64,000 bases of DNA from Desulfuromonas sp. (lineage in GTDB: Bacteria > Desulfobacterota > Desulfuromonadia > Desulfuromonadales > BM501), in contig NZ_PKUB01000041.1 of NCBI RefSeq assembly GCF_002868845.1, positions 203-64,202 of the forward strand, written 5' to 3'. The notes below the pieces were generated by a model. That model worked only from the letters and a program-made list of their open reading frames with translations. It searched no databases and was not told the DNA's origin. This document shows, in pieces, positions 12,063 to 63,043 of this stretch (positions are counted from its first letter, which is position 1; every line of letters begins with the position of its first letter). The position numbers and the translations under genes are program-made.

Positions 12063-12147
12063 CCCTTTTCGGTAACCCGGCCATCCAGATAGTGGACCCG
12101 TGGCTTTGCGTCACCAGATCACTCTGGCTTTGCCATTATCGAAGGGG
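12063..12147 (-). ncRNA. GEMM-I cyclic-dinucleotide riboswitch
   Basis: Read on the minus strand, the element starts with CCCCTTCG and ends with CGAAAAGGG, which pair as stem P1. Inside are the hallmark GGCAAA, a CCAGA-GTGA-TCTGG hairpin with a GNRA tetraloop, the invariant GACGCAAAGCC, a second hairpin, and the 3' GGGTTACCG. These match the GEMM-I class (Vibrio Vc2). By my alignment the base at Vc2 position 20 (first G of GGCAAA) is G, as in c-di-GMP binders; the cGAMP variants of Geobacter carry A there. The ligand call is inference. A terminator follows, and the next gene on this strand is the TolQ-like motor gene. Confidence 0.92.
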
Positions 12148-58677: not shown

Positions 58678-59688
58678 TCAGTTCCGGGCCATGATAGAGG
58701 TCTCGGGTGATCGCAGGAGGGGACGGGGAGGAACCCCTTTTTTGCCTTTCTCCATGCCTCTTCTGCCCCCTCCGCAGAGCGGTGCGAACCGGCCGGCGGC
58801 ATCGGGCGGCAGCGTCGCGACGGCTGAGAGGCAGAATAATCGCATCCGACCATCGGCGCCGGGTGGCCGGGTCACCGGCTTGACCTTCGTCCAGAACCCG
58901 AGGTGTTCCAATATCCGCCGAATCACCACCGCTTCGTTGATGAAGCTGACGATTTCCATCTCAGCCCCACAGTGCGGACACGCCAGCGGATCGACCTCCC
59001 AGACCTTCTTGATGCATTCGCGCCAGACCTTTAAAGGAATCCGTCGCGGCTTATGCTCCGCGACGCCTAAAGCCTCCACCGGGGGATCGGACAGAAACCC
59101 TTCACCCGCCTCAACACCCCTTTCAAGTTTCGCAGTAGCCGATCCCCCCGTGCCCGGTTGTAATACCATCCGTAATACCGCACCAGTCACAGCCCCGATG
59201 CCCCCCCCCTTTAACACCGAGCACCGTTTGGAAAAAGGAAAGGAGACACATATTGGCGCAGAGGCAGAGCCTGCTTAGCAACTGGCGGTCGTACTTGAAA
59301 TCAGGTCGCAAAATGATGGGGATGCTGAAGAAGTACTGCCGGTGAGGGACAGGGTGAAGGATGACATCCTTCAGGTGCTAGCCAAACTGGATCCCCTTTT
59401 TGCTGTGACAGCTGGGGCAGAACCAGCGCCCCCGGCAGCTGAAGGCGAGTAGGTACCATGGCGACAATCGGGACAGCGAACGCGGGCAAAACCTTCACGC
59501 AGGTCGCCGCACTTGAGATAATCCTTGACGACATCTCTGACGACCAACCGGAAGAAGCCGTATGATCTGGCGAACCGCTATTGGTACTGCCCCTCGAAAC
59601 TGCCACAATGCCGGTCGTGCAGCGTCCAGATAGGCGACTGCTGCGGTGTGCGCGGGTGGTAGCCGGCCGGTTTCTCTTCTGCGAACAT
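58678..59688 (-). pseudogene. degenerate IS91-family transposase (right copy)
   Basis: Minus-strand translation from ATG 59688 shows family sequence in pieces. The pieces are YHPRTPQQSPIWTLHDRHC, an internal stop, VVRDVVKDYLKCGDLREGFA with CPDC, then a frameshift to LAFSCRGRWFCPSCHSKK and a stop. Next come VPHRQYFFSIPIILRPDFKY and CANMCLLSFFQTVLGVKGGG, and a jump across a large internal deletion. The C-terminal KVWEVDPLACPHCGAEMEIV and HLGFWTKVKPVTR follow. It keeps the zinc-finger and C-terminal parts but lacks the Tyr catalytic core. It is dead; its C-terminal 65 bases recur at the other side of the LRR gene. Confidence 0.85.
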
Positions 59689-59764
59689 GTGCATCCCTGG
59701 GCATTGGAAAAGCCCAACAATACAACATGATTTAGTTGAAAATATTTCATAAAACGACTCAACT

Positions 59765-61652: not shown

Positions 61653-61720
61653 GCTGATAGCTGATAGCTGATAGCTGATAGCTGATAGCTGATAGCTGAT
61701 AGCTGATAGCTGATAGCTGA
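61653..61720. repeat. tandem 7-bp repeat (AGCTGAT) of about ten copies
   Basis: GCTGATA repeated without interruption for about 68 bases between aroF and the small Cys-rich gene. The array is perfect except at the ends. Confidence 0.97.
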
Positions 61721-61747: not shown

Positions 61748-62785
61748 TCAAGCCCCCTCGGGCAACCGCAGGGTCTTACCGGAGACCGCGGCGAACTCGG
61801 CCAGCTTGCGCATCATCGCCGCGAAGTCTTCGGGGCGCAGGGACTGGGCCCCGTCGCTGGAGGCCTTTTCCGGCTGGGGGTGGACCTCGACGATGAGGCC
61901 GTCGGCGCCGGCGGCCACGCTGGCGTAGCACATGGGCGCGACGAGGTGGGCGTGGCCGGTGGCGTGGGAGGGGTCGATGATCACCGGCAGGTGGGTCTGC
62001 GCCTTGAGGACCGGTACCGCCGAGATGTCGAGGGTGTTGCGGGTGGCGGTCTCGAAGGTGCGGATGCCCCGCTCGCAGAGGATGACCTTCTGGTTGCCCT
62101 CGGAGAGGATGTACTCGGCGCTCATCAGGAACTCCTGAATGGTCGTCGCCATCCCCCGCTTGAGGAGGATCGGCTTGTCGAGCTGGCCGAGCATCTTGAG
62201 CAGGGCGAAGTTCTGGGTGTTGCGCGCCCCGACCTGCATGACGTCGGCGTAGCGGGCCACCAGCTCCACGTCGCGGGGGTTGACCACCTCGGTGACGATG
62301 GGCAGGCCCGTCTCCCGGCGGGCCAGGTCGAGGAGCTTGAGGCCCTCCTCCTCCATCCCCTGGAAGGAGTAGGGGCTGGTGCGGGGCTTGAAGGCCCCGC
62401 CGCGCAGAACCTGGGCCCCGGCCGCCTTGACCGCCCGCGCGGTCTCGACGATCTGCTCTTCGCTCTCCACCGAGCAGGGCCCGGCCATGACGATCAGCTC
62501 GTCGCCGCCGACCGCCAGTCCGGGGGCGATCTCCACCGCGCTCGGCTCGGGCTTCACCTCCCGGCTGGCCAGCTTGAAGGGTTTGAGGATCGGCACCACG
62601 CTCTCGACCCCCGGCAACGACTCGAGGGCCTGAAGGACGGCCTTGCCCCGCTCGTCGCCGACCGCGCCGACGACGTTGCGGGTTTCGCCGTGGATGACGT
62701 GGGGCGTGTAGCCCAACTCGCGGATCTGCTTCTTGACCTCGGCCAGTTCTTCCTTGCTGGCCCCCTGCTGCATAACGATGATCAT
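61748..62785 (-). CDS. aroF: 3-deoxy-7-phosphoheptulonate (DAHP) synthase, type I beta with N-terminal regulatory domain
   Basis: AGGAGGAGCTAAACC precedes ATG 62785. The 345-residue enzyme has an N-terminal ferredoxin-like/ACT-like domain ([20 protein letters not shown]), as in Thermotoga DAHP synthase. The KDO8P-synthase-like barrel follows: [55 protein letters not shown], and metal ligands in [11 protein letters not shown] and IVEVHPQP. It starts the shikimate pathway. Its 5' leader holds an aromatic-rich peptide gene and terminators, so it is likely controlled by attenuation as well as by allostery. Confidence 0.95.
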
Positions 62786-62833
62786 GGTTTAGCTCCTCCT
62801 GGATCGATATGGGTGGACGGTTCTAAACAAAAC

Positions 62834-62859
62834 GGGCCGCCCGGTATCCCCGGCGGCCC
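62834..62859 (-). terminator. second terminator-like hairpin in the aroF leader
   Basis: On the minus strand GGGCCGCCGGGG pairs with CCGGGCGGCCC around ATA, then GTTTTGTTT. It lies between the attenuator and the aroF ribosome binding site. Confidence 0.75.
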
Positions 62860-62881
62860 TTTCATTCATCGATCCAAAACG

Positions 62882-62921
62882 AAAAAACCACGGAAGACCC
62901 GGAATAGGTCTGCCCGTGGTT
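62882..62921 (-). terminator. attenuator terminator in the aroF leader
   Basis: On the minus strand AACCACGG pairs with CCGTGGTT, with an inner AGACC/GGGTCT pairing, followed by TTTTTTCGTTTT. Its 5' arm (CGGGCAGAC, 62916-62908) is also perfectly complementary to GTCTGCCCG (62981-62973) near the 3' end of the leader peptide gene, giving mutually exclusive structures. Confidence 0.85.
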
Positions 62922-62950
62922 GCCTGATCTGGCGATGTGATCCTTCTTCT

Positions 62951-63043
62951 TTACGCCGACAGACTTTCACCCCGGGCAGACGACCCAAAATAAAAGCCGT
63001 ACCAAAAGTAAAAGCTGCTAAAGCTGGCGAAAAAGAAGCGCAT
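62951..63043 (-). CDS. aromatic-amino-acid-rich leader peptide of aroF
   Basis: ATG 63043 opens a 30-codon frame ending TAA at 62951. The peptide begins MRFFFASFSSFYFWYGFYF and ends with GESLSA; of its first 19 residues, eight are Phe, three Tyr and one Trp. GGGA lies seven bases before the ATG. Such density of pathway end-product codons directly upstream of a terminator and a DAHP synthase gene is the signature of transcription attenuation (compare the E. coli pheA leader). A ribosome stalled on these codons would leave the downstream GTCTGCCCG free to pair with the terminator 5' arm. Confidence 0.9.
   Translation of the reverse strand: MRFFFASFSSFYFWYGFYFGSSARGESLSA

Follow-up and report, generated by a model that had tools for sequence, protein, structure and literature searches.

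The type I-beta DAHP synthase gene in the DNA analyzed here (a stretch of 64,000 nucleotides from Desulfuromonas sp., hereafter the window) is very probably controlled by a ribosome-mediated transcription attenuator that responds to Phe, Tyr and Trp codons. The element combines a 30-codon leader with a predicted intrinsic terminator, hairpin H1 and its U-tract, that sits between the leader and the gene. The earlier note had described the leader, a 9-bp pairing and a terminator in front of DAHP synthase, and all three were confirmed: the reading frame has 30 codons, the complementarity of strand 2 to strand 3 is perfect over 9 bp, and H1 folds at about -22.2 kcal/mol (z -5.1 against shuffles). 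Its description lacked a second, terminator-like hairpin (H2), the 1:2 hairpin within the leader and an outer stem. We see roughly an even chance that the element in the window is one of a family of aromatic attenuators spread through the phylum. In this family, one stalled ribosome would put two successive terminators out of action as each pairing leads to the next (2:3, then 4:5, against 3:4 and 5:6), and the regulon would comprise DAHP synthase, ADH synthase, phenylacetate-CoA ligase and ABC transporters for amino acids.

The leader and its competing hairpins

The leader begins with an ATG at 63043 and ends with a TAA at 62953-62951 on the minus strand (Table 1). Its Shine-Dalgarno sequence is weak in the window, and no clear sigma-70 promoter was seen just upstream of it; a simple pattern scan for promoters and terminators found nothing and missed even H1, and is hence uninformative. 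The apical part of the 1:2 hairpin is continued by basal pairs between the leader start (63038-63026) and the leader end (62957-62946). Nine contiguous pairs with H1 were reached by 10 of 5,000 shuffles of the leader tail. The outer stem encloses H2 and ends directly 5′ of the DAHP synthase Shine-Dalgarno sequence.

Table 1. Features of the DAHP synthase leader region, in positions of the window
Feature	Positions	Strand	Sequence	Basis
Leader ORF, 30 codons	62951..63043	-	MRFFFASFSSFYFWYGFYFGSSARGESLSA	conserved aromatic run
Strand 1, core control codons	62987..63013	-	Phe-Tyr-Phe-Trp-Tyr-Gly-Phe-Tyr-Phe	
1:2 hairpin, apical part (62998-62984 with 62976-62962)	62962..62998	-	GGCUUUUAUUUUGGG : CCCGGGGUGAAAGUC	folding
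Strand 2, antiterminator segment	62973..62981	-	GTCTGCCCG	
Strand 3 core, part of H1 5′ arm	62908..62916	-	CGGGCAGAC	
Hairpin H1 (strands 3:4), predicted attenuator terminator	62886..62921	-		folding
U-tract of H1	62876..62887	-	TTTTTTCGTTTT	
Hairpin H2 (strands 5:6), second, terminator-like, GC-rich	62834..62859	-	GGGCCGCCGGGGATACCGGGCGGCCC	
T-rich tract 3′ of H2	62825..62833	-	GTTTTGTTT	
Outer stem (62875-62868 with 62808-62801)	62801..62875	-	GGATCGAT : ATCGATCC	
Shine-Dalgarno of DAHP synthase	62795..62800	-	AGGAGG	
Type I-beta DAHP synthase, regulated gene	61748..62785	-		PRK08673 E 2.3e-153, TIGR01361 E 1.5e-120

We propose that a ribosome on the leader would sense charged tRNA for Phe, Tyr and Trp, with transcription of DAHP synthase as the output. 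When these tRNAs are charged, the ribosome would run through the leader and the 1:2 hairpin would re-form behind it, hiding strand 2, so that strands 3 and 4 could fold as the H1 terminator and transcription would stop. A stall on the aromatic codons would instead leave strand 1 occupied and strand 2 able to pair with strand 3; with 2:3 formed, H1 would be blocked and RNA polymerase would read through. Strand 4, once free, would then pair with strand 5 and disarm H2 over much of the phylum and perhaps in the window. Leader translation, stalling, termination and the response to starvation are the steps that we infer in this scheme.

Folding of the window locus was simulated with the ribosome at the stop codon, at the last Phe codon and at the Trp codon. 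In the earlier note, a ribosome at the stop codon was taken to cover strand 2, which is geometrically wrong in this sequence: the stop comes some 20 nt after strand 2, and thus a ribosome halted there does not mask it. By folding, strand 2 is predicted to be sequestered by the 1:2 hairpin. Simulation of that state gave no 2:3 pairing and a full H1, consistent with the 1:2 hairpin re-forming behind the ribosome. Occluding strand 1 shifts the ensemble toward 2:3. A stall at the last Phe leaves the two alternatives about balanced (6.3 expected pairs for 2:3 and 7.0 for 3:4), and one at the Trp codon gives only 0.4 expected 2:3 pairs, the remainder of the 1:2 hairpin still holding strand 2. In these models, the last Phe-Tyr-Phe codons may therefore matter most in the window, and the effective control codons there may be only the last few. 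Among Geobacterales, a stall at Trp is already enough to free strand 2 (0.1 to 6.6 expected pairs).

Leader genes near a start codon can raise downstream translation (PMC4833913), and translational coupling or re-initiation, rather than termination, might on that ground be the main effect of the leader. In the window, however, 165 nt separate the leader stop from the start of DAHP synthase, with a U-tract terminator in the interval, and we regard this explanation as highly improbable.

Three other observations concern the surroundings of the locus. Directly 3′ of DAHP synthase (about 61660-61720, minus strand) lie some eight tandem copies of the 7-base unit AGCTATC. Several overlapping ORFs at 58678-59762 resemble, by eye only, transposase fragments beside an LRR-type protein. 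The only Rfam match in the window is a c-di-GMP-I-GGC riboswitch aptamer at 12067-12143 on the minus strand (61 bits against a gathering threshold of 59).

Conservation and coevolution in two orders

The named relatives are Desulfuromonas, Desulfuromonadales MAGs, Pelobacter, Geobacter and Geotalea, and the order names used for our locus sets are inferred from them. Of the 136 genomes of the order, 133 have a match to DAHP synthase with an E value no higher than 1e-60. An aromatic leader, typically F-x-FWYGFxFRPSARG, precedes nearly all orthologues in the two orders, including 76 of 77 loci on the Geobacter side. The paralogous DAHP synthase of the window's genome (L002) has no such leader, and distant orthologues (Nitrospinota, NC10 and others) are mostly without one; L083, L058 and L059 are among a few that have it. 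In L083, from a Nitrospinota MAG, an independent-looking aromatic leader, GYFCYYYFFGFWYYFSYG, stands before the DAHP synthase orthologue, and the 5′ arm of its terminator matches the leader tail by eye (CGACCCAT : ATGGGTCG). The covariance model R1, mainly a sequence profile given that RNAalifold supplied only 5 base pairs, matches 119 of the 136 genomes of the order with E down to 1.7e-39, essentially with one strong match per genome, at DAHP synthase.

Over 184 loci, a 14-codon run contains on average 6.2 Phe, 1.6 Tyr and 1.1 Trp; Trp is present in 97% of the runs and all three aromatics in 85%. Every gap inside the leader (53 in alignment A2 and 3 in A1) is a multiple of three, a pattern consistent with translation, and column entropy by codon position was uninformative. 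By this comparison of sequences, the element is not chance. An RNA structure that is strong and conserved ahead of a gene for amino acid synthesis might also point to a metabolite riboswitch or T-box in place of a ribosome-read attenuator, but the aromatic coding and its frame are conserved, and no T-box or known riboswitch matches here at the Rfam gathering threshold; we give such an RNA hardly any credence. At the same threshold, the window has no Phe_leader, Trp_leader or His_leader match either.

Pairings were tested by comparing the duplex energies of cognate arms with those of arms exchanged between species, giving a permutation z that ignores shared ancestry and so ranks helices without assigning probabilities. 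The antiterminator 2:3 and the two hairpins scored strongly in Desulfuromonadales (n = 106; z -10.7 for 2:3, -16.5 for 3:4 and -16.4 for 5:6) and in Geobacterales (n = 23; -4.0, -7.7 and -8.2), and a better hairpin parse gave -16.0 and -13.3 for 3:4 and -22.0 and -13.7 for 5:6 in the two orders. An all-against-all window scan, which was given none of these helices, recovered the same ones and added the base of the 1:2 hairpin (z -7.8 and -7.5). By MAFFT columns, 84% of 2:3 is paired, an understatement caused by a one-base shift of one clade, and the duplex tests were for this reason used instead. One clade has swapped a whole segment on both sides of a pairing (CATCGACCCG : CGGGTTGATG). An outer stem in Geobacterales, which encloses both H1 and H2, covaries with z -6.6 and is the counterpart of the outer stem in the window. 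A pairing of strand 2 with the 3′ arm of H2, strong by eye, was rejected for lack of coevolution (z -0.7 and -0.1).

Comparative sequence thus establishes the leader, its codons, the pairings and their coevolution. Both 2:3 and 3:4 coevolve, and the mutually exclusive antiterminator includes the 5′ arm of H1. The earlier note had proposed conservation of the codons and of the pairing in related genomes as a check, and leader, pairing and terminator proved to be conserved and coevolving in the two orders. Its reading of the locus as ribosome-mediated attenuation is supported by this pattern.

The second hairpin and the wider phylum

H2 is present and coevolves in both orders, and in a large part of the family it probably belongs to the switch. 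The 3′ arm of H1 (strand 4) is complementary to the 5′ arm of H2 (strand 5), and the 4:5 pairing coevolves in Desulfuromonadales (z -5.9, n = 94), in Geobacterales (-4.7, n = 56) and in other loci of the phylum (-8.2, n = 42; -19.4 against -15.9 kcal/mol when permuted). In the same three sets, 3:6 gave z -3.5, 0.8 and -1.5, and 4:6 gave -0.5 in the last of them. Were H2 a tandem duplicate of H1, the complementarity of 4:5 could be a mere by-product of two alike hairpins, and a CCATGG/CCGTGG core is common to H1 and H2 in many phylum loci. Such a duplicate predicts that 3:6 is as complementary as 4:5, however, and the phylum set averages -19.4 kcal/mol for 4:5 and -12.4 kcal/mol for 3:6, with -21.0 and -12.8 kcal/mol in Geobacterales; 4:5 also reaches into loop bases. 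We think this origin of the complementarity unlikely.

A more serious contender, to which we assign slightly less than even weight, is a plain four-segment trp/phe-type attenuator (1:2, 2:3 and 3:4), with H2 as a separate leaky terminator or mRNA-stabilising hairpin outside the switch. The window itself favors this reading. Measured against a genome-wide terminator background for which the window and 20 stretches sampled in two relatives were used, its 4:5 duplex (-14.0 kcal/mol) is no stronger than that of random terminator pairs, about one-third of which, from the same lineage, match it; H2 moreover stays folded in all equilibrium ensembles simulated for the window, leaving a relay there unsupported by folding. 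In Geobacterales, only about a quarter of 48 parseable loci lose half or more of H2 under a simulated stall. The mean for Desulfuromonadales (-13.6 kcal/mol) is likewise reached by about a third of random pairs, and only one hairpin is present in some relatives and in some loci of the phylum. Against a four-segment switch stands the coevolution of 4:5 in all three data sets, which exceeds that of 3:6. In the comparison with random terminator pairs, here from one Geobacterales genome, 1.2% of the pairs attain the Geobacterales mean of -21.4 kcal/mol. In 17 Geobacterales loci, the best 8-nt window of H1 holds no more than four T, and H2 has five or six in nearly all of them. With the H1 U-tract lost, control would reach the gene in these loci only if 4:5 passes the signal on, and a four-segment switch would be useless there. 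The Geobacter-side clade with little or no H1 U-tract and a retained T-rich tail of H2 consists of L193, L198, L200-L202, L238 and L263-L277.

Related elements occur elsewhere in the phylum. At E 1e-4, R1 matches 106 of the 394 genomes of the phylum; 20 of the 106 belong to the class that the window comes from, and among the stronger matches in other classes 60 were examined. Two hairpins could be parsed in 42 of these 60, a few of the parses being still doubtful. Across the phylum, the switch looks, from sequence, like a relay of the his-operon type (2:3 and 4:5 against 3:4 and 5:6), usually with two terminators. Because R1 largely profiles a T-rich codon run and a GC hairpin, the matches may include independently evolved attenuators as well as homologues.

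The first gene downstream is DAHP synthase at L290, L302, L311 and L318, at L319 with a match below the curated score, and by Pfam at L313, L330 and L349. It is ADH synthase at L305, phenylacetate-CoA ligase PaaK at L292 (slightly under the curated cut-off), an AMP-binding ligase at L331 and the periplasmic binding protein of a LIV-type transporter at L298, L306, L322, L328, L337, L342 and L348; first genes of the remaining loci were assigned from the appearance of the N-terminus only. Two loci, L336 (2-isopropylmalate synthase, with no aromatic leader) and L323 (a TPR protein, with a weak leader), may be chance matches or different elements. Tyr-rich (e.g., YYYYGYLRRSAL) or Phe-rich leaders with tandem hairpins precede LIV-type binding proteins at L295, L298, L301, L306, L328 and L343, which suggests Tyr- or Phe-specific variants of the switch before these transporters. 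Phe-rich leaders also stand before phenylacetate-CoA ligase-like genes at L292-L294, L296, L297, L299, L300 and L304; here, a catabolic or interconversion gene is apparently under a starvation-type attenuator, which is unexpected.

Significance and comparison with known attenuators

For bacteria of the Desulfuromonas and Geobacter type, the attenuator would supply a specific regulator, open to testing, of the first, shared step of aromatic synthesis. It further suggests that aromatic starvation may be read, over a large phylum, by a double-terminator relay and not by the textbook single switch, and this relay is the part worth testing. The earlier note's view that attenuation logic had been placed on a DAHP synthase held up, and its novelty is smaller than it appeared, as DAHP synthase attenuators are already known from Corynebacterium (aroR) or proposed in Acholeplasma. 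A search of literature mostly outside subscription journals returned no description of the element before DAHP synthase in relatives of Desulfuromonas and Geobacter.

In Corynebacterium glutamicum, a Phe-Tyr-Phe leader, aroR, attenuates the DAHP synthase gene aroF (PMC4046766); this attenuation is also credited to Neshat 2014 in a passage of PMC11802643. As is proposed for the window, an aromatic leader peptide precedes DAHP synthase and limitation leads to read-through, but aroR belongs to an unrelated phylum and has a short control run. The Acholeplasma uORFC-13-1 motif, a predicted Phe-containing uORF followed by a terminator, is found exclusively upstream of aroF (24 examples; PMC8632094); it differs in phylum and structure and is reported with at least one Phe codon. 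A putative attenuator before the aroA′-aroB′ operon of Desulfovibrio vulgaris, from the Merino database, appears in a 2005 table of tyrA-linked attenuators (PMC1173090, Table 7). This is an ADH-synthase operon, the gene class of L305 and its look-alikes, and the table gives the attenuator as a prediction with no mechanism; it does not list the DAHP synthase of Desulfuromonas or Geobacter relatives.

The pheA and trp attenuators of Escherichia coli (pheL and trpL) work through 1:2, 2:3 and 3:4 alternatives with a ribosome on Phe or Trp codons (PMC11802643, PMC10989985). Each controls one branch, whereas the element in the window mixes three aromatics at the common first step. The his operon attenuator of Salmonella and E. 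coli (hisL) has AB, CD and EF stems with BC and DE as alternatives (PMC10989985, PMC10065794). It has the six-segment logic of the relay proposed for the aromatic family, in which a stall frees one strand and the alternatives propagate to the last terminator. The aromatic family differs from it in sensing Phe, Tyr and Trp codons and, in the window, in a last relay step (4:5) that is not above background. It differs also in the middle hairpin: H1 mostly carries a U-tract of its own, which would make two terminators, except in one Geobacter-side clade where this tract is lacking. That clade is a natural test of the relay, and such natural variants offer ready tests of both its working and its evolution.
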